Source: Pseudomonas sp. Leaf58 (lineage in GTDB: Bacteria; Pseudomonadota; Gammaproteobacteria; Pseudomonadales; Pseudomonadaceae). Taken from it: DNA of 64,000 nucleotides. Below the pieces are notes generated by a model. The model saw only the letters and a program-made list of their open reading frames with translations, was not told the DNA's origin and searched no databases. Made by a program: the position numbers and the translations under genes. The first letter of the stretch is position 1, and each line of letters opens with the position of its first letter. The stretch covers positions 3,973,501 to 4,037,500 of the forward strand of contig NZ_CP032677.1 of the NCBI RefSeq assembly GCF_003627215.1, in the 5' to 3' direction. Positions 3,402 through 16,185 of this stretch are shown here, in pieces.

Positions 3402-6400
3402 TCAGGCCTCTGAGAATGCGTTCATCATGTGTTCGATATCGCTCAAGCCGTCATCGCTCAGCGACAGCCCCTGCTCGTCCAGCGCCTGGGCGAACGCGCG
3501 CAATTCGGGGTGGCTGAAGATCAGCCGCAGCGGCACGTCCAGCCCCAGCTCTACGTTAATGCGCGACACCGCCTGGGCAGCCAGCAGGGAGTGGCCGCCC
3601 AGCTCGAAGAAGTTGTCGTTCAGGCCGACCCGGGCAACGTTGAGCAACTGTGTCCAGATGCTCGCCAGCTGCTGTTGCCGCTCGGTCTGTGGCGCCTGGT
3701 AGTCCTGTTGCGGCTGGCTCGGCTCGGGCAGCGGCAGGGCCTTGCGATCGAGCTTGCCGCTGGGGGTTAACGGCATGCTCGGCAGGGTCACCAGATAAGA
3801 CGGGATCATGTAGTCCGGCAGGCTGGCCTTGAGGTGCTGCTTCAAGGCCAGGCGCAGGTCGCCACGCTGGCCCTCCGCCGGTACCGCGTAGGCGCACAGC
3901 TGCTTGCCACCGGGCAGGTCGATGGCCAGCACGGTGGCTTCACGCACGCCCGGGTGGGCCCGCAGGTACTGCTCGATCTCGCCCAATTCGATGCGAAAAC
4001 CGCGCACTTTCACCTGGTGGTCGACCCGGCCGCGATAGGCCAGCTGGCCGTTTTCGTCGTAACAGCCAAGGTCGCCGGTGCGGTACAGGCGGCCACCGCC
4101 AACCGGGTCGAATGGATCGGGGATGAAGCGCTCGGCAGTGAGCGACGGCCGCTGGTGGTAACCACGCGCCAGGCACCCCGCGCCGCCAATGAACAGCTCG
4201 CCGGGCACGCCCACCGGGGTAGGCGCCAGGCCATCGTCCAGCGCGTACAGGGTACGGCCTGGCAAGGCGCGGCCGATCGGTACGCCGCCCTGGCTGAGCT
4301 GCACCACGGTCATCGCCGAGCAGTCATAGGTGCTGGCGACCACGGTGGCTTCGGTCGGGCCGTAGGTGTTCAGCAGGCGCACCGCTGGCGGGCCATCGGC
4401 CAGCCAGGCGCGCAGGCCGTCTTCCGGCACCGCCTCACCGCCGACGTGAATCTGCTTCAGCCGGCCATAGGCCTCGGGCGTGCGGCGCTCCAGCGCCAGC
4501 AGGCGCCAGTAAGCTGCCGGCAGGTCGGCCACGGTCACGCCGTGGCGGTTGATCTCGGCCAGCAAGGTGGCGGTGTCCCACAGCCGCAGGTCGCGCAGCA
4601 CCACGCAGGCGCCCTGGGCCAGCGGCGGGAAGAACTGCTCGATGAAGCCGTCGAAACTGACGGTAGCGAACTGCAGCACGCGGTCGTCCGGGCCAAGGCG
4701 CGAATAGTCGGCGGCCACCTGGCAGAACATCGACAGGGCGTGGTGATCGATGGCCACGCCTTTGGGCATGCCGGTGGAGCCGGAGGTGTAGATTACGTAG
4801 GCGAGGTGCTGCGGCGCCGCCAGGTTCACCAGCGGCTCGCCAGGCCAGGCTTGCAGCCACTCGGTGCCGGGCTCCAGCACCACGCAGGGCAGTTGCTTGC
4901 CCAGTTGCAGGCGCTCACGCGAAGGCGCGTCAGCCAGCAGCAGGCCGATGCCGCTGTCCTCGACCATGTAGGCCAGGCGGTCTTGCGGGTAATCGGGGTC
5001 CAGCGGCACGTAGGCACCCCCGGCCTTGTGAATCGCGATCAGCGCCAAGGCCATGCCCAGGCCGCGCTCGACAGCCACACCAACCAGGCGATCCGGCCCC
5101 ACGCCCAGCGCCCGTAGGCGGTGCGCCAACTGGTTGCTGCTGCGGTCCAACTCGGCGTAGGTCATTTGCTGGTGGTCGAAAATCAACGCTAGCGCGCCTG
5201 GCCGTTCATGCGCCTGGCGCTCCAGCAATTGGTGTGCGCACAGGCCACTGTTGGCCTGGGGCACGGGGTTCCAGCCGTGGGTCAACTGCTGGCGTTCGGC
5301 GCGGCCGAGCAAGTCCAGCTCGGCAATGCAGCGCTGCGGCTGGGCGCAGATGGCTTCCAGCAGCGCCTGCCAGTGCCCGGCCATGCGCTCGATCCGCGCT
5401 GCGTCGAACAGGTCGGTGGAATAGTTGAACGAAGCGGTCACGCCATCGGCGCGCTCCAGGGTGTTGAGCGAGATGTCGTACTGCGCGCCCGGCTCCAGCA
5501 AGTCCACTTCCCTGACCTGCAGGCCATGCAGGGCATCGCTGGACACCTGCTCGCCCAGGTCGCGCAGGTGGTTGTACAGCACCTGGAAGAACGGGTTCAC
5601 GCCCTGGTCGCGGTCCGGGTACAGCGCTTCGGCCACTTCAAGGAACGGCACGTCCTTATTGGCCTGGGCCTGCAAGGTGGTCTCCTTGATGGCAGCCAGC
5701 AGTTGCGGGAACGGCTGGCTGGGGTCGACAGCGATACGGGCTACCACCACGTTGATGAAGAAGCCGATCAGCCCTTCAAGCTCCAGGCGGTTGCGGTTGG
5801 TGACCGGCACGCCGATGTTCAGCGTGCCCTTGCGGCTGTAACGCGACAGCACAATGGCATAGGCCGCCAGAAATACATGGAACAGCGTGGCGTTGGACGC
5901 CACCGCCAGTGCGCGCAGGCGCTCGGTAAGGGCCTGCGGCAGGCGCACGTCGAAGCGGCTGCCCTGGTAGCTCTTGACCTGCGGGCGAATGCGCTCGGCG
6001 GGCAGCTCCAGCACTTCGAAGTCGTCTTCCAGGCGGGCCTTCCAGTAGTCGATCTGCGCCTGCATCTGCCCCTCGGCCAACCACTTGCGTTGCCAGGCAG
6101 CGAAGTCGGCGTACTGCACCGGCAGCGGCTCGATGGCTTGCGCCTGGCCAGTGGCAGCGGCGTTGTAGGCGGCGGCGAACTCGCGCACCAGCAGGCTCAT
6201 CGACCAGCCGTCAGAGACGATATGGTGCAAGGTCAGCGACAACAGGTGTTCCTGCGCATGCACCTTGAACAGGCGCGCACGCAGCAGCGGGCCGTGCTCC
6301 AGGTCGAACGGCACGAAGGCTTCGGCTTCCAACCTGCGCAACTGCGCGGCGTGGTCTTGGCCGCTAAGGTCGTCGAAGCCGATCGGTACCGTGGCCGCTG

Positions 6401-9400
6401 GCAGGATGCGCTGCCAGGGCAAGCCATCGGCTTCGACGAACACCGTGCGTAGCGATTCGTGGCGGGCCACCAAGGCGTCCAGCGCGGCCTGCATGGCGGT
6501 GTGGTCGAGGTGGCCCTGCATGCGCACGGCCAGCGGCGTGTGGTAGGCCAAGCTTTTGGGGTTGAGCTTCCAGAACAGCCATTGGCGGTTTTGCGAACGG
6601 GACACCGGCAATGGCTGCTGGCGGTCGAGGATTTCGATGTCCAGGCCCGCGCCCTGCTCACCTTCGGCCACTGCCAGGGCGAAGGCCTGCAGGTCGACGG
6701 TGTCAAACAGGGTGCGCAGCGGGATATCCACGCCCAACTGCTTGCGCACCCGCGACACGGCCTGGGTGGCCAGCAGCGAATGCCCGCCGAGGGCGAAGAA
6801 GTTGTCGCTCAGGCCGACCTGCGGCACGTGCAGCACTTCGGCCCAGATCTGCGCCACTTGCACCTGCAGCGGCGTCTGCGGCGCCTGATAACCAGCCTGG
6901 CTGGCAACCGGCTCTGGCAATGCCTTGACGTCGACCTTGCCATTGGCCGTCACCGGCAAGTGCTTCAGCAGCATCAGCTGGCTCGGCAGCATGTGCTCGG
7001 GCAGCAGGCCTTTGAGGGTGGCGCGAATCGTGTCCAACCAGGCCTGGCTGTCTACTGGCAGCTGGCTGGGCACCAACCAGGCGGCCAGTTGCTGCTGCGG
7101 CGCCTGGCCATGCACGCGCACCAAAGCGTTGGCGATGCCGTCCAGTGCGCGCAGCTGGTTTTCGATTTCGCCCAGCTCCACCCGGTAACCACGGATTTTC
7201 ACCTGGCCATCCATACGCCCGGCAAAGTGCAGCTCGCGGCCTTGGCGCACCCAGTCACCGCTGCGGTACAGGCGCTGGCCATGGCTGCCGTGCGGGTCGG
7301 GGACGAAGCGTTCGGCGGTGAGTGCCGGGCGGTTCAGGTAGCCACGGGCCAGGCCGGCACCGCCAATGTACAGTTCGCCCTTGGCCTTGGCCGGCAGCGC
7401 TTGCAGGCAGCGGTCGAGGACGGCGACGTGGGTGTTGGCCAGCGGCTGGCCGAGGCTGGGCTGCGCGTTCAGTTCAGCGACCAGTACACCGACGGTGGTC
7501 TCGGTCGGGCCGTAGTGGTTGAACACCTTGAGCGCCGGCGCCAGGTGGCGGAGCTTGCCCAGCAGGCCCGGGCTGATGGCCTCGCCACCGAGCACCAGGC
7601 ACTGCGCCGGCAAGGCCGCACGGCCTGCCACCAACATGGCCTCCAGGTGAGATGGCACGATCTTCAACGCATCCACCTGGTGCTCGGCCAGGTAAGCGGC
7701 AAAGCCTTCGGCATCCAGCACCTGCTCACGCAGCAGCAGGTGCAGGGTGTGGCCGCCGCACAAGGCGCTGAACAGCATGGTGTGGCCAAGGTCTGCTGCC
7801 GGGGTCGAGACCTGCGCCATGCTGCGGATGCGCTCGACCGGCAGGCGTGCGGTGATGCCGTCGACATAGTTGGCCAAGGCAGCGTGGCTGATCGCCACGC
7901 CCTTGGGTTGGCCGGTGGTGCCGGAGGTGTAGATCACGTAGGCCAGGTTGGCCGGCAGCGGGGCGATGCGCCTGGCGCTGCGACTGCCGGCTTGCGCCCA
8001 ATCCAGGTGCTGCACCTGGCCGGGCAGCGCGGCCTGCCAGTTGCCGGGGGCCAGGACCAGGCGTGTGCCGCTGTCGGCCAGCATGTAGGCCAAGCGCTCG
8101 GCAGGCTGCTCAGGCTCCAGGGGCAGGTAGGCGCCACCGGCTTTGAGCACACCGAGGATACTGGCGAGCATGCCGACACTGCGGTCGGCCAGCACGCCGA
8201 CCGGTGTGTCCGGCCCCACGCCGGCTGCGGCCAAGCGGTTGGCGATGGCCTCGGCGCGGGCATCGAGTTCGGCGAAGCTGGCCTGCTCGCCCGCAGCCAT
8301 CACTGCAGTGCGTTCAGGGTGACGGCTGGCTGCAGCAGCAAAGCGTTGCTGCACCATTAGCGATGGGTCCGCCTGCACCGGCGCGGCAATGGCAGGGGCA
8401 AGGCCCGGCAAGGCCAGCTCGCCAACGGCGCCAGCTGCCTCAGCGGCCAGGGCCTGCACCAGCGCCAGCCACTGCTCGCCAAGGGCTTCGACGGTGGCTG
8501 TGTCGAACACATCGGTGGCGTAGGTGAACGCCGCCTGCAATTGCCCGGCGCGCTCGTGGGTATCCAGTGCCAGGTCGAAGCGGGCGCTGTGCTTAGCCAG
8601 CTCGATCGGTGCCAGGCTCAAGCCAGAGCGGGTCTCGAGGGCTTGCACATCCGCCACCTGCGCCTGGTGGTTGAACAGCACGCGGAACAACGGGCTGTCG
8701 CTGCTGCGTGGCAGCTCAAGGGCTTCGACCAGCTGTTCGAACGGCAAGTCCTGGTGGCTTTGCGCGCCCACGGCGGTTTCCCGCACGCGCTGCAGCAGGC
8801 CGGCGATATCCAGCAGCGGGTCGATCTCGGTGTGCAGCACCTGAGTATTGATGAAGCAGCCAATCAGGCCCTGGCTTTCGCCACGGTTGCGGTTGGCGAT
8901 AGGCACACCGACGCGGATCGCCGCCTGGCCGCTGTAGCGCTGCAGCAACAGCTTGAAGGCAGCCAGCAGGACCATGAACAGGGTGACGTTGTGCTTGCGG
9001 GCCAGGCCGCGCAGGCGCTCGGCGACATCGGCGGCGATGGGGAACGTGTGGCGCGCGCCACGGTAGCTGGGCCGGCCCTGACGGGTGCGGTCCAGTGGCA
9101 GTTCCAGCGGTGAATGGTCGTCGCCCAGGCGTGCCTGCCAGTAAGCCAGCTGGCGCTCCTGCTCGCCGGCTTGCAGCCAGCTGCGCTGCCACAGGGCGTA
9201 GTCGCGGTACTGGATCGGCAGCGGCTCCAAGGTGGCTTCGGTGCCGGCCACGGCGGCGTCGTACAGGCGCAGGAACTCGTCGATCAGCACGTTCATCGAC
9301 CAGCCGTCGGCGACGATGTGGTGCAGGGTTAGCAGCAGCACGTGCTCCTGCGTCGCCAATTGCAGCAGGCGCACGCGCAGCAGCGGGCCGCTGGCCAGGT

Positions 9401-9869
9401 CGAACGGGGCCAGGGCTTCGGCTTCGGCGAGGGTTTCGATGGCGGCCTGACAGGCGTTTTCATCCAGGTGGATCAGGCTGTCCTGACGCAGTTGCAGTGG
9501 TGCGGCGACGGCGTCTACCTGCTGGCGCACATCATCGCCGTCGGCGACGAAGCGGGTGCGTAGGGTTTCGTGGCGGGCCACCAGGGCATCGAAGGCGTGC
9601 TGCAGGGCGGCCAGGTCCAACGGACCGTGCAGGCGCACCGCCATCGGCAGGTTGTACGCCGCGCCCTGCGGGTCGAGCTGCCAGAGGAACCACATGCGCC
9701 GCTGGGCGTACGACAGCTGGTCGCGCTCGGCCACCGCCACGCCGGGCGCGATCGGCAGCACGGAAAAGTCCATGCCCTCGCCCTGCAGCGCCTTGAGGAA
9801 CAGGCGGCGCTTGTCGGGGCTGAGTTCGATGAAGCGGCGGGCGAGCTTGAGCGTTTGATCGGCGTTCAT
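3402..9869 (-). CDS. Pyoverdine-type non-ribosomal peptide synthetase, two modules C-A-T-C-A-T (predicted Asp, Lys)
   Basis: 2,155 residues from ATG 9869. Module 1: C (HHIVADG about 185), A (YTSGTTGQPKG, YGPTETTVG), T (DNFFALGGHSLL about 1025). Module 2: C (HHIVSDG about 1213), A (YTSGSTGMPKG about 1695, YGPTEATVV), T (DNFFELGGHSLL about 2090). There is no epimerase or thioesterase, so the chain passes to the next protein. The pocket codes I read are DLTKVGHVG (aspartate) and DGEDHGTVV (recalled as the lysine code of PvdJ). The frame stays open to 10073, but that extension only translates a 7-bp repeat, and a PvdS-type promoter lies between it and 9869, so ATG 9869 is preferred. An AGGA lies 11 nt upstream. 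Many P. putida pyoverdines begin Asp-Lys-OHAsp after the chromophore, which fits. Confidence 0.92.
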   Translation of the reverse strand: MNADQTLKLARRFIELSPDKRRLFLKALQGEGMDFSVLPIAPGVAVAERDQLSYAQRRMWFLWQLDPQGAAYNLPMAVRLHGPLDLAALQHAFDALVARHETLRTRFVADGDDVRQQVDAVAAPLQLRQDSLIHLDENACQAAIETLAEAEALAPFDLASGPLLRVRLLQLATQEHVLLLTLHHIVADGWSMNVLIDEFLRLYDAAVAGTEATLEPLPIQYRDYALWQRSWLQAGEQERQLAYWQARLGDDHSPLELPLDRTRQGRPSYRGARHTFPIAADVAERLRGLARKHNVTLFMVLLAAFKLLLQRYSGQAAIRVGVPIANRNRGESQGLIGCFINTQVLHTEIDPLLDIAGLLQRVRETAVGAQSHQDLPFEQLVEALELPRSSDSPLFRVLFNHQAQVADVQALETRSGLSLAPIELAKHSARFDLALDTHERAGQLQAAFTYATDVFDTATVEALGEQWLALVQALAAEAAGAVGELALPGLAPAIAAPVQADPSLMVQQRFAAAASRHPERTAVMAAGEQASFAELDARAEAIANRLAAAGVGPDTPVGVLADRSVGMLASILGVLKAGGAYLPLEPEQPAERLAYMLADSGTRLVLAPGNWQAALPGQVQHLDWAQAGSRSARRIAPLPANLAYVIYTSGTTGQPKGVAISHAALANYVDGITARLPVERIRSMAQVSTPAADLGHTMLFSALCGGHTLHLLLREQVLDAEGFAAYLAEHQVDALKIVPSHLEAMLVAGRAALPAQCLVLGGEAISPGLLGKLRHLAPALKVFNHYGPTETTVGVLVAELNAQPSLGQPLANTHVAVLDRCLQALPAKAKGELYIGGAGLARGYLNRPALTAERFVPDPHGSHGQRLYRSGDWVRQGRELHFAGRMDGQVKIRGYRVELGEIENQLRALDGIANALVRVHGQAPQQQLAAWLVPSQLPVDSQAWLDTIRATLKGLLPEHMLPSQLMLLKHLPVTANGKVDVKALPEPVASQAGYQAPQTPLQVQVAQIWAEVLHVPQVGLSDNFFALGGHSLLATQAVSRVRKQLGVDIPLRTLFDTVDLQAFALAVAEGEQGAGLDIEILDRQQPLPVSRSQNRQWLFWKLNPKSLAYHTPLAVRMQGHLDHTAMQAALDALVARHESLRTVFVEADGLPWQRILPAATVPIGFDDLSGQDHAAQLRRLEAEAFVPFDLEHGPLLRARLFKVHAQEHLLSLTLHHIVSDGWSMSLLVREFAAAYNAAATGQAQAIEPLPVQYADFAAWQRKWLAEGQMQAQIDYWKARLEDDFEVLELPAERIRPQVKSYQGSRFDVRLPQALTERLRALAVASNATLFHVFLAAYAIVLSRYSRKGTLNIGVPVTNRNRLELEGLIGFFINVVVARIAVDPSQPFPQLLAAIKETTLQAQANKDVPFLEVAEALYPDRDQGVNPFFQVLYNHLRDLGEQVSSDALHGLQVREVDLLEPGAQYDISLNTLERADGVTASFNYSTDLFDAARIERMAGHWQALLEAICAQPQRCIAELDLLGRAERQQLTHGWNPVPQANSGLCAHQLLERQAHERPGALALIFDHQQMTYAELDRSSNQLAHRLRALGVGPDRLVGVAVERGLGMALALIAIHKAGGAYVPLDPDYPQDRLAYMVEDSGIGLLLADAPSRERLQLGKQLPCVVLEPGTEWLQAWPGEPLVNLAAPQHLAYVIYTSGSTGMPKGVAIDHHALSMFCQVAADYSRLGPDDRVLQFATVSFDGFIEQFFPPLAQGACVVLRDLRLWDTATLLAEINRHGVTVADLPAAYWRLLALERRTPEAYGRLKQIHVGGEAVPEDGLRAWLADGPPAVRLLNTYGPTEATVVASTYDCSAMTVVQLSQGGVPIGRALPGRTLYALDDGLAPTPVGVPGELFIGGAGCLARGYHQRPSLTAERFIPDPFDPVGGGRLYRTGDLGCYDENGQLAYRGRVDHQVKVRGFRIELGEIEQYLRAHPGVREATVLAIDLPGGKQLCAYAVPAEGQRGDLRLALKQHLKASLPDYMIPSYLVTLPSMPLTPSGKLDRKALPLPEPSQPQQDYQAPQTERQQQLASIWTQLLNVARVGLNDNFFELGGHSLLAAQAVSRINVELGLDVPLRLIFSHPELRAFAQALDEQGLSLSDDGLSDIEHMMNAFSEA

Positions 9870-9907
9870 GTCGAGCGGTGTCCTGGCAGTCGAGCGGTAA
9901 CTGTCAG

Positions 9908-9931
9908 ACGAAGGTGTGGGGGGATGATTTA
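9908..9931 (-). promoter_or_regulatory. PvdS (iron-starvation sigma factor) promoter for the NRPS genes
   Basis: On the minus strand TAAAT (9931-9927), 16 nt that include a C-rich run, then CGT (9910-9908). This matches the PvdS-dependent promoter consensus TAAAT-N16/17-CGT exactly. It sits about 40 nt before ATG 9869, so iron starvation should switch on the NRPS genes from here, independently of the hydroxylase gene upstream. Confidence 0.75.
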
Positions 9932-9984
9932 GGGGATTGGCTGGGGGGACAGGTGCCTGGGGCTGGATGGGGTCAGGGGCATCA

Positions 9985-10070
9985 GGGGTCCGGGGTCCGG
10001 GGTCCGAGGTCCGGGGTCCGGGGTCCGGGGTCCGGGGTCCGAGGTCCGGGGTCCGGGGTCCGGGGTCCGG
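9985..10070. repeat. 7-bp tandem repeat (GGGGTCC), about 12 copies
   Basis: Uninterrupted tandem repeat of GGGGTCC. Copies 4 and 9 carry the variant GAGGTCC; the rest are identical. It lies just upstream of the NRPS promoter and abuts the large inverted repeat. As DNA it is very G-rich on the plus strand, with runs of four G every seven bases. Confidence 0.95.
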
Positions 10071-10404
10071 CATTGGATTGGGTCAGGGCCACTAGGTGCC
10101 TGCCTTGAGAGGTGTAGCGCCTATGAGATCGAGCGCCGCCCGCGCGGCGCTTCGCGGGGCAAGCCCGCTCCTACGTTTGTTTCGGGCCAGTAACGCCTGT
10201 GACATGCGCGCGCGGCCGCCTTGTTTGTGACATCCAATATCGCGCCATGCGCCAAGGCGGTCGCGCGCGCTGGCCCAGGATGGACTGGCCCGAAACAAAC
10301 GTAGGAGCGGGCTTGCCCCGCGAAGCGCCGCGCGGGCGGCGCTCGATCTCACAGGCGCTACACCTCTCAAGGCAGGCACCTGGTGGCCCTGACCCAATCC
10401 AATG
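10071..10404. repeat. Large inverted repeat with 121-bp arms and a nested hairpin
   Basis: Arms 10071-10191 and 10284-10404 are reverse complements with only about two mismatches. Each arm carries a REP-like palindrome (ttcgcggggcaagcccgc). The 92-bp centre contains a second inverted pair (about 10206-10223 with 10253-10270, one mismatch). No open frame of interest lies inside. It separates the hydroxylase gene from the NRPS promoter and could end transcription of the hydroxylase gene. Confidence 0.92.
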
Positions 10405-10555
10405 CCGGACACCTGGTGGCCCTGACCCAATCCAATGCCGGACACCTGATGCCCCTAACCCAATCCAATGCCTACCACCTGATGCCCCTAACCCAATCCA
10501 ATGCCGGACACCTGATGCCCTACCCCAATCCAATCCCCGACACCTGCTGGCCCTA
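10377..10555. repeat. 33-bp tandem repeat, about 5.5 copies
   Basis: Units start at 10377, 10410, 10443, 10476, 10509 and (32 bp later) 10541. Each begins cacctg and contains a cccaatccaatgcc core. The first two copies are identical and later ones drift. A single inverted copy lies at 10071-10098 as the outer end of the left arm of the inverted repeat. A poly-C/poly-A stretch follows at about 10561-10575. Confidence 0.93.
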
Positions 10556-10575
10556 ATACACCCCCCCAAAAAAAA

Positions 10576-11559
10576 TCAGCGCAACACCTCGGAATACCCC
10601 TGCGCCATCGCCACCACCACCTTGCGCCTGCCGGTAAACGGCGACCGCGCATGCGCCGCCAGCATGTTGTCGAGCATCAACACATCGTTCGCCAGCCAGG
10701 GGAAGCTGATGGTGCATTCATCCAGCACCCCGCGCACTTCATCGAGCAGCGAGTCCTCAATGATCGAACCATCGCCGTAATACACGTTACGCGGCAGATC
10801 CTCTTCCTCGACAATGTCCATCAACGACTCGCGCACCTCTGCCTGCAGGTTCGACACATGGAACAGGTGCGCCTGGTTGAACCACACGTCATCCCCGGTC
10901 ACCGGGTGCCGGGCCACTACCTGGCAGCGCTGGCGGGTGCGCAGTTCACCGTCATCCTTCCAGAGGCACTCGATGGCATGCGCCCGGCAATAGGCTTCGA
11001 CCTGGCGTGGGTCTTCAGTGTTGAACACCTGCGACCACTCCACATCCAAACCGTTGCCGTAGTTGCGCACATACATCAGGCCCTTCTCCTCCAGCCGCTG
11101 GCGAATGCGCACCGGCATGCGCCGGTACACCTCGCGGCTGTCGGCAATCGGCGTTTCGCCACCGGTCTGGGCGGGGATCACGCTGTAAAACCAGATCTTC
11201 ATTGGCCATTCCAAGGTGTAGGCCTGCTCGTTGTGCAGGGGGATGCTCTGGTGCGCCGGGTACTCGGTGGAGGTGTACACGCCCTGGGTCACGTTGCTGC
11301 GCGGGGTAGAGCCGAACTCGTAGTTGAGCAGCGGGTGGCCGAAAGCACCGGCGAACTGGCGGAAAGCCTCGGCACCACCTACCTCGAAGCCGCGGAACAG
11401 AATGCCGCCAGCCTGCAGCAGGTGCCGCTCCACCAGCGGCTGCAACTCAGCAAAGGCTTGCAACAAGTCGATACCCGGCGCTGGCGCACGCACCAGCAGC
11501 GGCAGGTTGCCGCGCGCGGCATCCAGCGGTTCGATCGCAAAGCGCAGCAGTTCACTCAT
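10576..11559 (-). CDS. SyrP-like TauD-family Fe(II)/2-oxoglutarate dioxygenase, probable aspartyl beta-hydroxylase
   Basis: 327 residues with the TauD/SyrP fold. The iron ligands are visible as His109-x-Glu111 (PLHNEQAY) and a distal His303 (MLAAHARSP), followed by the 2-oxoglutarate-binding Arg in FTGRRKVV. SyrP hydroxylates carrier-bound Asp in syringomycin synthesis, and homologues make beta-hydroxyaspartate, an iron ligand of pyoverdines. Here it lies upstream of two predicted Asp modules on the same strand. GAGGTG precedes the ATG by 9 nt. A PvdS-type promoter lies upstream. Confidence in the family is high; which Asp residue it modifies is inferred. Confidence 0.88.
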   Translation of the reverse strand: MSELLRFAIEPLDAARGNLPLLVRAPAPGIDLLQAFAELQPLVERHLLQAGGILFRGFEVGGAEAFRQFAGAFGHPLLNYEFGSTPRSNVTQGVYTSTEYPAHQSIPLHNEQAYTLEWPMKIWFYSVIPAQTGGETPIADSREVYRRMPVRIRQRLEEKGLMYVRNYGNGLDVEWSQVFNTEDPRQVEAYCRAHAIECLWKDDGELRTRQRCQVVARHPVTGDDVWFNQAHLFHVSNLQAEVRESLMDIVEEEDLPRNVYYGDGSIIEDSLLDEVRGVLDECTISFPWLANDVLMLDNMLAAHARSPFTGRRKVVVAMAQGYSEVLR

Positions 11560-11633
11560 GTACGGTCACCTCAAGCCAGGGCCGCGTTGGCGGCAAAATC
11601 GGATGTGCGCCATGGCAGCGCCTGACTAGGTGA

Positions 11634-11657
11634 ACGAGCAGGCCAGCGGGAAATTCA
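11634..11657 (-). promoter_or_regulatory. PvdS-type promoter for the hydroxylase gene
   Basis: Minus strand TGAAT (11657-11653), 16 nt, CGT (11636-11634), followed by TC as in the usual CGTTC context. One mismatch to TAAAT. About 75 nt before ATG 11559. Confidence 0.5.
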
Positions 11658-11676
11658 CCCGGGCAGCTCACCCAGG

Positions 11677-11700
11677 TAAAGCCGCGGCGGCTCGGTTCGT
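11677..11700 (+). promoter_or_regulatory. PvdS-type promoter for azurin-pvdE
   Basis: Plus strand TAAAG (11677-11681), 16 nt, CGT (11698-11700). One mismatch to TAAAT-N16-CGT. It diverges from the hydroxylase promoter in the same 180-bp gap and lies 40 nt before the azurin ATG. Confidence 0.5.
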
Positions 11701-11739
11701 CTGAACGATGTGCACCCTTTTATCGCCCAGGAACCGTAC

Positions 11740-12189
11740 ATGACTCGCCAGCTCCTGCTCCTCGCCCTGCTCGCCGCGGCCCCTGCCGCCTGGTCGGCGC
11801 AGCCATGCGCCGTGGAAATCCATGGCACCGACCAGATGGCTTTCGACAAGGCTGCCATCAGCGTGCCCACGGCCTGCACCGCGTTCACCGTCACCCTCAC
11901 CCACCCTGGCGACATGCCGAAGAACGTGATGGGCCACAACTGGGTGCTGAGCACCCAGGCCGACATGCAGGGCGTGCTCGACGACGGCCAGAAAGCCGGT
12001 GAGGCGCAGGGCTACGTGAAGCCCGGCGACGCCCGCGTCATCGCCCACACGCGCCTGATCGGCGGCGGCGAACAGGCCAGCGTCACCCTTGACACTCGAG
12101 CGCTGAAAGGCGGTACCGCCTACAGCTTCTACTGCTCGTTCCCGTTCCACAGCACCTTGATGAAGGGCACCCTGACCCTCGGCAGCTGA
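11740..12189 (+). CDS. azu: Azurin, periplasmic blue copper protein
   Basis: 149 residues. A 20-residue signal peptide (cut after WSA) leaves a 129-residue mature protein, close to the standard azurin length. The type-1 copper ligands fall at mature positions His46 (MGHNW), Cys112, His117 and Met121 (YCSFPFHSTLMKG), exactly the classical azurin numbering. Azurins carry single electrons in the periplasm. ATG 11740 is chosen because AGGA lies 7 nt upstream and the signal peptide then begins correctly. Only 34 bp separate it from pvdE, so co-transcription is likely. Azurin in a pyoverdine locus behind a PvdS-like promoter is unusual. Confidence 0.92.
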   Translation: MTRQLLLLALLAAAPAAWSAQPCAVEIHGTDQMAFDKAAISVPTACTAFTVTLTHPGDMPKNVMGHNWVLSTQADMQGVLDDGQKAGEAQGYVKPGDARVIAHTRLIGGGEQASVTLDTRALKGGTAYSFYCSFPFHSTLMKGTLTLGS

Positions 12190-12223
12190 CCCCGCCCCCA
12201 CTCCACCAGCGAGATCATGCTTC

Positions 12224-13876
12224 ATGAAAACCTCCTCCCCTGGGGCCATCCGCGAATTGCTGGGCCTGCTCAAACCCTACCGCCCGGCGGTCATCGGCTC
12301 GGTACTGCTGGGCATGGTCGGCGGCCTGGCCGTGACCGCCTTGCTAGCCACCGTCAACCAAGGCCTGCACGCGGCAGGCGGCATGAGCCACGGCGTGATC
12401 CTGGCCTTCGCCGGCCTGTGCGTGCTGGCCCTGGTCAGTAGCGTGGCTGCCGACAGCGGTACCAACTACGTCGGCCAGAAAGTCATCGCAAGGCTGCGCA
12501 AGGACTTGGGCGCCAAGGTGTTGTCGGCGCCCATCGAACAGATCGAGCGCTACCGCAGCCACCGCCTGATCCCGGTGCTGACCCGCGATGTCGACACCAT
12601 TAGCGACTTCGCCTTCGCCTTTGCCCCGCTGGCCATCTCGCTGACCACGGTGACCGGCTGCATGGCCTACCTGGCCTGGCTGTCGTGGCCGATCTTCCTC
12701 ATCACCCTGGCAGCCATTGGCATCGGTAGCGGCGTGCAGTACATCGCCCGGCAGAAGGGCGTGGCCGGTTTCAACGCCGCGCGCGACGCCGAAGACAACC
12801 TGCAAAAGCACTACTCGGCCATCGCCGAAGGGGCCAAGGAACTGCGCATCGACCGCCGCCGCCGCCACACCATGCTGACGCGTAACATTCAGGGCACCGC
12901 CGACTTCATTGCCAACACGCATATCCGCGCCATCAATATCTTCGTCGCGGCCAAAAGCCTAGGGTCGATGCTGTTCTTCGTGGTCATCGGCCTGACTCTG
13001 GCCTTGCAGTCGCTGTGGCCGAGCAACGACCCGGCGGTGATAAGCGGCTTCGTGTTGGTGCTGCTGTACATGAAGGGCCCGCTGGAAACCCTGATCGGCA
13101 ACCTGCCGATTCTCGGCCGCGCGCAGATTGCGTTCCGCCGCATTGCCGACCTGTCCGAGCGCTTCGCCTCACCCGAGCCGCACCTGCTGCTGGCACCGCC
13201 GGTCACGCGTACCGCCCCGGCTACTGCGCACCTGGAGCTGCACAACGTCGAATACGCCTACCCGCCGGTGGACGGCAACGAGCCGTTCCGCGTGGGGCCG
13301 GTGAACCTGAGCATCGCGCCGGGCGAGATCCTGTTCATCGTCGGCGAAAACGGCTGCGGCAAGACCTCGCTGATCAAGCTGCTGCTGGGCCTGTACACCC
13401 CGCAGCGCGGCGAAGTGCGCCTGAACGGCACGGCCGTCGGCCCAGAGGCGTTGGATGACTACCGCCAGCTGTTCACCACGGTGTTCGCCGACTATTACCT
13501 GTTCGAAGACCTGCCCGACCACGAACACAGCCTGCCCAGTGATGCCACGCGCTACCTGGAACGGCTGGAGATTGCGCACAAGGTGAGCGTGCGCGACGGC
13601 GCCTTCACCACCACCGACCTGTCCACCGGGCAACGCAAGCGCCTGGCGCTGGTCAATGCCTGGCTGGACGGGCGGCCGGTGCTGGTGTTCGACGAATGGG
13701 CGGCGGACCAAGACCCGACCTTCCGCAGGGTGTTCTACACCGAACTGCTGCCGGACCTGAAGCGCATGGGCAAGACCATCATCGTGATTTCGCATGACGA
13801 CCGGTATTTCGATACGGCGGACAAGGTGGTGCACCTTAGCCGTGGGAAGGTGGTCGAGGCGGTGGAGCCAGCCTGA
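12224..13876 (+). CDS. pvdE: PvdE, inner-membrane ABC exporter of the pyoverdine precursor
   Basis: 550 residues, a fused half-transporter of the cyclic-peptide exporter (SyrD/PvdE) family. The N-terminal part (about 1-300) holds six membrane segments. The ATPase part has Walker A GENGCGKTS (374-382), signature LSTGQRKRL, Walker B VLVFDEW and switch His in VISHDD. PvdE moves ferribactin from cytoplasm to periplasm, where the chromophore is finished. It follows azurin closely on the same strand and diverges from the hydroxylase and NRPS genes. Full length with no missing motifs. Confidence 0.95.
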   Translation: MKTSSPGAIRELLGLLKPYRPAVIGSVLLGMVGGLAVTALLATVNQGLHAAGGMSHGVILAFAGLCVLALVSSVAADSGTNYVGQKVIARLRKDLGAKVLSAPIEQIERYRSHRLIPVLTRDVDTISDFAFAFAPLAISLTTVTGCMAYLAWLSWPIFLITLAAIGIGSGVQYIARQKGVAGFNAARDAEDNLQKHYSAIAEGAKELRIDRRRRHTMLTRNIQGTADFIANTHIRAINIFVAAKSLGSMLFFVVIGLTLALQSLWPSNDPAVISGFVLVLLYMKGPLETLIGNLPILGRAQIAFRRIADLSERFASPEPHLLLAPPVTRTAPATAHLELHNVEYAYPPVDGNEPFRVGPVNLSIAPGEILFIVGENGCGKTSLIKLLLGLYTPQRGEVRLNGTAVGPEALDDYRQLFTTVFADYYLFEDLPDHEHSLPSDATRYLERLEIAHKVSVRDGAFTTTDLSTGQRKRLALVNAWLDGRPVLVFDEWAADQDPTFRRVFYTELLPDLKRMGKTIIVISHDDRYFDTADKVVHLSRGKVVEAVEPA

Positions 13877-13884
13877 AACAGCCA

Positions 13885-13903
13885 GGGGTTGCTGCGCAGC
13901 CCC
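13885..13903 (+). terminator. Hairpin after pvdE
   Basis: GGGGTTGC and GCAGCCCC (one G-T pair) around a 3-nt loop, 8 nt after the pvdE stop. Only a weak T-run follows (TTCATC), so termination strength is uncertain. Confidence 0.45.
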
Positions 13904-13918
13904 TTCATCAACCACCGC

Positions 13919-14014
13919 CTATAATCACTCTATAATCTTTCTATAATTCGCTATAAACAACGCTCCCGGGGAAGTCTATAATATCCCTATAATCACTCTA
14001 TAATTGGCTATAAA
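13919..14014 (+). promoter_or_regulatory. Eight CTATAAT/CTATAAA boxes in two identical four-box arrays
   Basis: Boxes start at 13919, 13930, 13941, 13951 and again at 13976, 13987, 13998, 14008. Both groups have spacings of 11, 11 and 10 bp, and in both the first three boxes read CTATAAT and the fourth CTATAAA. The arrays are 57 bp apart with a CCCGGG centre between them. One-turn spacing puts all boxes of a group on one face of the helix, as in cooperative protein-binding iterons. Each box also equals the sigma-70 -10 consensus TATAAT. The last box ends 19 bp before the ATPase start codon. Confidence 0.9.
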
Positions 14015-14033
14015 TTCTAGTGGAGGGGCAGAA

Positions 14034-15191
14034 ATGCCTGAAACCGTCTACCACCGCCCGGCCCTCGCCTCCCGCCTGTCGAAACTGATCCTGCAAGTCG
14101 CCGTGGGCAGTGCAGCAAGCTCAGGTGTGTTTCTCGCTGCGCCACGACGCACCGGTAAATCCACTTTTGCCCGCGAAGACCTGCGCCCTGCCCTCGAAGC
14201 AGCCGGGGCAATAGTGCTGTATGCCGACCTGTGGAAAGACCTGACCAAAGACCCAGGCCAGGTCATCGTGGAAGCTGTGCGTGAAGCGGTCGCTCGCAAC
14301 GAAGGCTTCATCACGCGCCTGGCAAAGTCGTCAGGTATGGAAAAAGTCACTGTCGGCGGGCTGAACTTCAGCCTGGACAAGATCGGACTCGGGCAAGATA
14401 TCGACCTGACCACCGCCCTGGTGGCGCTCTCTGATGAGTCCCGCAGGATCATCGTCCTGATCATCGACGAAGCGCAGCATGCAATCACCACGGAACAAGG
14501 CATAGCAGCCCTGTTCGCCCTCAAGGCAGCCAGAGACGAACTCAACAGTTCGAAGCATCATGGCCTGCGCGTCGTCTGCACGGGTTCAAACCGGGACAAG
14601 CTGGCCATGCTGCGCAACAGCAAGGATCAGGCATTCTTCGGTGCTTCCATGGTGCAGTTCCCAACGCTGGACCAGGACTTCATCGATTGGCTTTGCGCCA
14701 ATATCGACTTGCCCTGCGCACTCGACCCCGCGGAGGTATTCCAACTGTTCCGCGAAAGCGGCTACCGCCCAGAACTATTGGGCGCAGCAGCGGATGAAAT
14801 CCGCTTCGACTTCAGCATTGCGCCCGAGGCCATTCCGGCGCGATTCAGCGAACTTGTTCAGGCACAAGCCAGTGACTTGAACGCAAACATGAGAAAAGTG
14901 ATCCATAGCCTCACCCCTATTCAGTCTGCTGTGTTGCGTGTCATGTGCGTCAAGGGTAACGACTACGCGCCGTTCGAGGCCCCAACCCTGGCACTGTACG
15001 CCAAGGCGATGGAACAGGCAGGCGTGGACGCAAGCGAAGTAAAGGCCGAGGTGCCGGGGGTACAGCAAGCTCTCATCGCCTTGCAGGACAAGAACCTGGT
15101 GTGGAAAGCATCGCGGGGGGTGTACGCGGTAGATGAACAGGTGATAGTCGATCTAGTGCGCGCCGATGGTTTGCTGGAAGGTCTTGCTTGA
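14034..15191 (+). CDS. Orphan AAA/STAND-type ATPase of unknown function with possible C-terminal winged helix
   Basis: 385 residues from ATG 14034, with GGAGGGG 6 nt upstream. A TTG 30 nt earlier is in frame but lies inside the box array. Walker A is APRRTGKST (about residues 36-44) and Walker B is VLIIDEAQH (about 140-148), followed by a TGSNRDK sensor-like segment. This resembles archaeal-type ATPase_2/Orc-Cdc6-like NTPases. The last 100 residues (from about VIHSLTPIQ) look like a winged-helix domain. No signal peptide or membrane segment. No partner gene is adjacent: pvdE precedes it and lpxO converges. The upstream box array suggests DNA binding or autoregulation by this protein, which is inference. 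Function not recognised. Confidence 0.8.
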   Translation: MPETVYHRPALASRLSKLILQVAVGSAASSGVFLAAPRRTGKSTFAREDLRPALEAAGAIVLYADLWKDLTKDPGQVIVEAVREAVARNEGFITRLAKSSGMEKVTVGGLNFSLDKIGLGQDIDLTTALVALSDESRRIIVLIIDEAQHAITTEQGIAALFALKAARDELNSSKHHGLRVVCTGSNRDKLAMLRNSKDQAFFGASMVQFPTLDQDFIDWLCANIDLPCALDPAEVFQLFRESGYRPELLGAAADEIRFDFSIAPEAIPARFSELVQAQASDLNANMRKVIHSLTPIQSAVLRVMCVKGNDYAPFEAPTLALYAKAMEQAGVDASEVKAEVPGVQQALIALQDKNLVWKASRGVYAVDEQVIVDLVRADGLLEGLA

Positions 15192-15212
15192 GTAGGCCAG
15201 GATCTGCTCGTA

Positions 15213-15234
15213 AGCGCCAGGCCAACCTGGCGCT
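15213..15234. terminator. Hairpin between the convergent ATPase and lpxO genes
   Basis: Perfect 9-bp stem AGCGCCAGG/CCTGGCGCT with a 4-nt loop, in the 58-bp gap between two converging stop codons. No T-run on either side, so it may only protect 3-prime ends. Confidence 0.5.
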
Positions 15235-15249
15235 GTGAGCAAACTGGAA

Positions 15250-16185
15250 TCAGAACAACCAGTGATACAACAAATACACCACCGCCGCCGCCAGCACCGG
15301 TCGCAGCACACGGTAGGCCTTGGGGTTGGCACGCTTGAACTGCTTCACCTGGCCACTGACCTTGTTGCTGAAGCGCTTGCTCCAGGCATAGGCCTGGTTG
15401 ATCCCACCCACGCGCTCGTCGTCGGTGTTCTGCGGGGCAGTGGCGCGGCCGAGGAAGGCACTGACGTTGCGGTTGACGCGGGCCATCAGCGGGCTACTCA
15501 GCGGGCGCTCGATGTCACAGAACAGGATCACCCGGGTGACGTCGGTTTCATTCTTGACCCAGTGCACGTAGGTTTCGTCGAACATCACATCCTCGCCATC
15601 ACGCCAAGCGTATTCCTCGCCATCGACGTAGATGCGGCAAGCATCGGAGTTGGGGGTGGACAGCCCCAGGTGATAGCGCAGCGAGCCAGCGAAAGGGTCG
15701 CGGTGCGGGTTGAGGTGGCTGCCACCCGGCAGCAGGGCAAACATCGCGCCCTTGACGTTGGGGATGCTGCTAACCAGCTCGACCGTGCGCGGGCACAGGG
15801 TTTCGGCCGACGGCAGCGGTTTGTCGTACCACTTCAGGTAAAAGCGCTTCCAGCCTTTTTTGAAGAACGACCCAAAGCCGGCGTCGTTGTCTTTCTCGGC
15901 GGCACGAATGTAGCCCTCATCGAACAAGCGCATGGCCTCTTCGCGGATTTCCTGCCAATTGTCTTTCAACACATCCAGCTCGGGGAAGCGCTGGCGGTCC
16001 AGGTAGGGTTTGGACGGCACGCCGGAAAACAAATACATCAAGGCATTGTAGGGGGCGAACAACGCCGAATGGTTGACGAACTGGCGCAACACCGGCAGGC
16101 GGGCCTTGCCGCGCAGGTGCACGAACAGCACGCTGCCGAAAAACACCAGCAAGACACCCGCCTTGGCTGCAAAGGAAAAGGTCAT
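15250..16185 (-). CDS. lpxO: LpxO-like lipid A hydroxylase (aspartyl/asparaginyl beta-hydroxylase family)
   Basis: 311 residues. The N-terminus has one membrane anchor (residues about 5-22) and a second hydrophobic segment lies at the C-terminus (about 296-311). The catalytic domain shows the family iron site HLNPHRDPF (His-x-Asp) and a second His in DETYVHWV, with the 2-oxoglutarate Arg nearby. LpxO adds a 2-hydroxyl to the secondary laurate of lipid A at the inner membrane. AAGGAG stands 8 nt before the ATG. It lies downstream of cysK with a 172-bp gap in which I see no other feature. The family is secure; the lipid A substrate is by analogy. Confidence 0.83.
   Translation of the reverse strand: MTFSFAAKAGVLLVFFGSVLFVHLRGKARLPVLRQFVNHSALFAPYNALMYLFSGVPSKPYLDRQRFPELDVLKDNWQEIREEAMRLFDEGYIRAAEKDNDAGFGSFFKKGWKRFYLKWYDKPLPSAETLCPRTVELVSSIPNVKGAMFALLPGGSHLNPHRDPFAGSLRYHLGLSTPNSDACRIYVDGEEYAWRDGEDVMFDETYVHWVKNETDVTRVILFCDIERPLSSPLMARVNRNVSAFLGRATAPQNTDDERVGGINQAYAWSKRFSNKVSGQVKQFKRANPKAYRVLRPVLAAAVVYLLYHWLF

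Follow-up and report, generated by a model that had tools for sequence, protein, structure and literature searches.

A phased array of CTATAAT boxes, probably an autoregulatory operator, before an ORC-like ATPase gene of Pseudomonas

Described systems and the locus in Pseudomonas sp. Leaf58

Genes of archaeal Orc1/Cdc6 proteins stand beside replication origins, plasmid iterons are tandem short direct repeats beside the gene of a DNA-binding protein, and sites of the OmpR/PhoB type are made of head-to-tail boxes of 7 base pairs (bp) at an 11-bp pitch, read by winged-helix proteins. A locus that resembles all three in part is found in a 64,000-nucleotide stretch of Pseudomonas sp. Leaf58 (contig NZ_CP032677.1, positions 3,973,501 to 4,037,500; hereafter "the window"), where two groups of four CTATAAT/A boxes, eight in total, lie on the forward strand (13919-14014) upstream of a gene for a predicted orphan AAA+ ATPase with a C-terminal winged helix (14034..15191, forward strand; 385 residues from an ATG start). 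We consider it probable that this array is a cooperative autoregulatory operator-promoter of the ATPase gene, and we infer from it that the ATPase binds the boxes, cooperatively and perhaps under nucleotide control, and represses its own gene. The basis for this is the recurrence of the boxes before homologues, their phasing, their register with the start codon, the joint absence of array and gene in two relatives, the changing box word and the fold prediction, and the finding is best filed as an autoregulatory operator array tied to an unnamed family of ORC-like ATPases.

The likeness to the archaeal Orc1/Cdc6 proteins and related ATPases (A. pernix ORC2, 1w5t; ORC1-DNA, 2v1u; Sso1545, 2fna; PABY2304, 2qen) lies in the predicted fold, an AAA+ core followed by a winged helix, and in a gene that adjoins repeated boxes. 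Orc1/Cdc6-type chains align over nearly the whole predicted model, on which ground we predict an AAA+ ATPase resembling Orc1/Cdc6. Unlike in the archaeal systems, the boxes lie on the ATPase gene's own start region, and there is no match at the sequence level: none of the solved chains matched the protein at E-values up to 1, and no Orc/Cdc6 Pfam model was among its hits up to E 0.1, so that a family match to Orc1/Cdc6 by sequence is lacking. Its best Pfam models were AAA_22 (26.9 bits against a cutoff of 27) and ATPase_2 (16.7 against 33.2). NCBIfam and PHROGs have no family for it, 50,697 phage records contained no relative, and a peptide pattern hit 130 stretches of viral contigs, none of them a relative. 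The PADLOC model mad8 (MAD8 of the MADS anti-phage system) gave a match (E 0.00088, 16.9 bits; neighbours belonging to such a system were judged by eye only).

With the OmpR/PhoB sites the array shares the head-to-tail 7-bp boxes, the 11-bp pitch and a proposed winged-helix reader, whereas here the proposed binder is an AAA+ ATPase, with no receiver domain among its Pfam hits, and the arrays are longer. It resembles plasmid iterons in being made of tandem short direct repeats beside the gene of a putative DNA-binding protein, but the window unit is chromosomal and relatives live without it. Unlike the transposition ATPases TnsC and MuB, this ATPase has no conserved neighbours, and no recurring transposase partner appears among the neighbour clusters shown.

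The array and its counterparts before homologous genes

Each group consists of three CTATAAT boxes and a final CTATAAA, with start-to-start spacings of 11, 11 and 10 bp (group 1, 13919..13957, starts at 13919, 13930, 13941 and 13951, a tandem repeat of period 11; group 2, 13976..14014, starts at 13976, 13987, 13998 and 14008), a layout given in the original prediction and confirmed from the coordinates. Its suggestion that such an array is unlikely to have arisen by chance holds as well, since CTATAAW occurs eight times on the two strands of the 64-kb window, always as a box of the array, while 100 dinucleotide shuffles of the window gave a mean of 1.13 matches and a maximum of 4. Searched through the full 6.34-Mb genome of two contigs, the triple pattern CTATAA-N(3-5)-CTATAA-N(3-5)-CTATAA hits only the window array and a single variant array, at C2:610441 of the second contig, and its reversed control finds nothing. 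All boxes had been placed on one helix face; this is true within each group, where three steps add up to 32 bp, but the groups are 57 bp apart, or about 5.4 helix turns by arithmetic from the coordinates, so that boxes share a face within a group and not between groups.

Upstream regions were listed for 30 loci of the genus and for 79 of 80 named loci, L063 being excluded because its match starts inside the gene. At least three TATA[AG] cores were present in 62 of 94 non-redundant homologue upstreams, and a pair of cores 10 or 11 bp apart in 68, versus 2 of 19,916 in each case for control windows of the same size taken from the same loci. Among 278 spacings between adjacent cores, 10 bp (117 cases) and 11 bp (85) together account for 202, and every other value occurs at most 10 times. 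There are 35 blocks with the 11/11/10 layout, in 23 of 79 non-redundant loci, and their consensus unit is TCTATARTCNN, in which only the letters outside the core are informative because the search required the core: the flanking C before and T after most boxes are nearly fixed, and the middle spacer letters vary. Relative to the ATG, box centres peak near -23, -34, -44 and -55, and the third box of group 2 in the window is centred 33 bp before the ATG. The hosts include Pseudomonas, Duganella, Massilia, Cupriavidus, Variovorax and Thiobacillus. Thus, with exceptions, homologues carry a site of this kind over the start of their own gene, as is characteristic of autoregulatory operators.

Further from the window protein the word of the box changes, and in about half of the distant upstreams a repeated layout is kept. 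In 23 loci of the genus with 37-43% identity, the best dyad has its centre 32-34 bp ahead of the start codon in 21 loci and exceeds all 200 shuffles in 13; by eye, this dyad reads as a palindrome with as many as six boxes. In distant homologues (21-37% identity) the box words, read by eye, are AACTTATC, ATTACGT, ATTATGC, GTACTTAC and GCGTAA. A blind dyad test gave z of at least 2.5 in 17 of 33 non-redundant distant upstreams versus 15 of 396 control windows, and in 13 of those 17 the dyad is centred at -29 to -36 from the start codon; autocorrelation over distances of 6-30 bp in 34 distant upstreams peaks at 10 bp. The third box of group 2 in the window (-33) coincides with the position of the palindrome centre in the other homologue groups. 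Judged from sequence, a shifting word with a retained dyad would be the trace expected of a self-binding protein whose specificity drifts, and the change of the word with the protein argues against a fixed host factor.

A predicted winged-helix domain covers residues 293-366 (14910..15131, forward strand; model secondary structure, with limits set by our judgement). Within it, the helix of residues 340-352 (15051..15089, forward strand) is the likely recognition helix according to the modelled structure, and its Gln345 covaries with the array: residue 345 is Gln in 43 of 47 proteins with a direct phased array versus 4 of 21 without one (68 proteins less than 90% identical). In the clade with at least 45% identity this position ranks second of 385 columns, with p 2.7e-4, a value uncorrected for the number of columns or for descent.

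The array and the ATPase gene largely behave as one unit. At the window's locus, compared among 30 loci including its own, the gene is present in three other genomes (G057, G145, G555), and in two relatives (G607, G072) the upstream ABC transporter gene, presumably pvdE-like, joins the downstream gene through a spacer with neither array nor ATPase; the remaining 24 differ on that side, as judged by eye. Neighbour clustering finds the unit at differing places with few shared neighbours. A conserved operon partner was rejected, as 151 neighbouring open reading frames of 79 loci fell into 120 clusters, 105 of them with a single member.

As to the gene itself, the open reading frame as listed begins at a TTG (14004) within the array; we took the ATG at 14034 as its start, and a ribosome-binding site, GGAGG, can be read 7 nucleotides before it (14022..14026, forward strand). 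Residues 36-44, APRRTGKST (14139..14165, forward strand), which we take to be the Walker A motif, are invariant in an alignment of 21 sequences. On the 3' side of the gene an inverted repeat, GCGCCAGG-CCAA-CCTGGCGC (15214..15233, forward strand), is a possible terminator without a T run; the terminator scan did not list it. Before the array (3402-13876) lie a large non-ribosomal peptide synthetase gene, a TauD-like gene and an ABC transporter, a region that we assume to be a siderophore (pyoverdine) locus, and the ATPase sits between two flanking genes of this siderophore-like locus.

Plasmid copies and arrays without the gene

ATPase matches were found in 46 of 149 genomes of the genus (Leaf58 included; a few matches are partial), and relatives turned up in 106 of 72,556 plasmid records. 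Three plasmid copies, each a single case, stand out by their context. In pMPPla107 (L224, 6004-7845) a relative with 28.6% identity is fused to an ERCC4 and helix-hairpin-helix nuclease in a protein of 613 residues; in pPNAP01 (L220, 5998-7167) an ATPase gene with boxes before it is flanked by pglW and pglX within a BREX-2 operon; and in pACP4.3 the ATPase copy overlaps a tyrosine recombinase gene and lies close to separate genes for replication initiation, ParB and a further AAA ATPase. Together they hint at mobile-element biology. The variant array of Leaf58 (C2:610441-610480; L037, from 5442; second contig of 904 kb), four copies of CTATAAAGG, stands some 340 bp ahead of a free-standing gene for an ERCC4 nuclease with 39% identity to the nuclease half of the pMPPla107 fusion.

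Some arrays have no ATPase gene beside them. The pattern CTATARTN(3-4)CTATARTN(3-4)CTATAR was found in 33 of 249 genomes of the genus, with none in the rows of its reversed control. Of 29 newly fetched array loci, 10 have the ATPase directly behind, one has an open frame for its last 81 residues only, and 18 have no ATPase within 1.5 kb. Most free arrays have the same form as the gene-linked ones, 11-bp units followed by a 10-bp unit and CTATAAA(G). Several lie in apparent accessory DNA (IS66, TniQ beside glmS, an integrase, Tn3, arsenic genes), contexts that were judged by eye and in one case (L166) seen in part, and one (L162) lies in a core intergenic region. Two others (L160, L173) stand between the stop codon of a gene that by eye is MvaT/H-NS-like and a terminator-like hairpin; these are two related islands near tRNA-Cys/tRNA-Gly. 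Apart from some pairs, the free arrays share no flanking DNA, and no gene common to all their contexts was found, the widest cluster covering 6 of 21 contexts, of which two are near copies. Ends of tRNA genes as a common site were rejected, tRNAs being present in only 3 of 20 contexts. A scan of viral contigs gave at least 120 stretches with an array, 4 of which had a GC content above 0.5 among the matches listed; one of these contigs (L300, IMG/VR, GC 0.64) has a perfect 11/11/10 array at about 11075 of the reversed locus, downstream of phage-like genes, with no ATPase seen near it.

Some of the orphan arrays are, to judge from sequence comparison, remains of gene loss. At one site three genomes (G070, G006, G560) have arrays and gene, another (G141) has four boxes and no gene, yet another (G079) has boxes that by eye are decayed, and five (G044, G092, G586, G084, G029) have neither; in G020 (L155, 1501-1790) the array is directly followed by the open frame for the last 81 residues, the winged-helix part. 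That most orphan arrays mark places where an ATPase gene has been lost, which would be compatible with an operator, is a tentative proposal about which we lean slightly to the negative, since several orphans are perfect, with identical units, and free arrays are carried by 8 of 103 genomes that lack a homologue versus 2 of 46 that have one (149 genomes), which shows no positive link between the two.

Weighing the readings

For a cooperative binder, the C-terminal winged helix of the ATPase would read the box, with one protomer per helical turn (the 7-bp box and a spacer of 3-4 bp) placed head to tail along each four-box group. The AAA+ domains would hold adjacent protomers together, making binding ordered and cooperative, and since the boxes are -10-like and one of them has its centre 33 bp ahead of the start codon, the protein, once bound, would cover the site of RNA polymerase and shut off its own gene. 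The outcome would be a sharp negative feedback, possibly nucleotide-dependent. A binding platform for a cooperative protein was among the original suggestions and is the best reading, most likely for the ATPase itself, because the boxes recur before most homologues examined in register with the start codon.

Several observations weigh against an operator of this kind. Four fairly close homologues (L053, L054, L055, L107; 66-70% identity) lack the array and have Leu at residue 345; a fifth (L209) lacks it too, with an upstream identical to that of L054, and is thus probably the same locus. Some of the four upstreams show, by eye, a TTTGAT...ATCAAA inverted repeat. Another homologue (L081) has no array in the 179 bp upstream examined, and 16 of 33 distant upstreams have no strong dyad. 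The covariation of residue 345 is to be read with the lack of correction for relatedness and for 385 columns, and the promoter-like match across both groups is no better than chance. Moreover, 18 of the 29 fetched array loci have no ATPase gene within 1.5 kb, and among 20 genomes carrying orphan arrays or remnants of them a full-length homologue is found in no more than 3, so that something other than the ATPase may use the arrays. The comparison of homologues, through which the platform had been expected to stand or fall, is mixed: boxes precede most of the homologues considered and are missing from four fairly close ones, and they also turn up without the gene.

One may also consider a role of the array in replication or partition, with the ATPase serving as initiator or segregation factor; iterons of such an origin were mentioned in the original prediction. 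The Orc1/Cdc6-like predicted fold, the relatives on plasmids and the arrays apart from the gene would all suit this. Nevertheless, iterons of a replicon lie beside its own, required initiator, whereas the window unit is chromosomal and missing at the same place in G607 and G072; the unit is found at differing places with few shared neighbours, the pACP4.3 copy has separate replication initiation, ParB and AAA ATPase genes near it, and the register of the boxes tracks the start codon, which is operator-like. We regard this explanation as improbable. Marginally less credible still is that the arrays are a spreading or slipping repeat, of the repetitive extragenic palindromic type or with a variable number of tandem units, devoid of a regulatory role: orphan arrays reach seven identical 11-bp units (L140), and at one site, between convergent genes, one genome has an array that is absent from all 20 relatives listed (the flank was matched in 193 of 199 genomes), but before the gene the middle spacer letters vary from unit to unit, the register is maintained, and arrays are almost never seen in control windows.

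A general host factor could also read the boxes, either sigma-70 RNA polymerase, for which they would be a -10 trap, or an MvaT/H-NS-like silencer, silencers of this kind preferring TpA-rich DNA. The boxes are indeed exactly -10-like, as had been pointed out; arrays without the gene exist, several of them in apparent accessory DNA, and two (L160, L173) directly follow the MvaT-like gene. Against this, the word shifts across the family while a repeated layout is kept in about half of the distant upstreams, GTACTTAC and GCGTAA are not words that a reader of -10 or TpA elements should accept, and a scan of 13800-15260 for a -35 and a -10 element separated by 16-18 bp found a single site, TAAACA-17-TATAAT (13954..13982, forward strand), a consensus match only, to which the fourth box of group 1 and the first box of group 2 contribute; shuffles gave a mean of 0.6 sites, so this promoter match is no better than chance. 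We consider such a factor unlikely. Just as unlikely, in our estimation, is a broader scenario of solitary, sporadic ORC-like ATPases with a private DNA code that co-evolves with the winged helix, in which arrays with that code, in mobile DNA elsewhere and on the phage-like contig, would act in trans as targets for the recognition of rival elements or as titrating decoys, although the ERCC4 fusion and the BREX-2 copy would fit a role in conflict between elements.

With the autoregulatory operator as the favoured explanation, the array phenomenon is real and broader than first noted. Predicted DNA targets that can be read from sequence alone are now at hand for an unnamed family of ATPases, encoded on chromosomes of Pseudomonadota and on large plasmids such as pQBR103 and pNY8709-IMP. 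This brings to light free-standing copies of the array, and it opens the question of how an ORC-like ATPase switches its DNA word.
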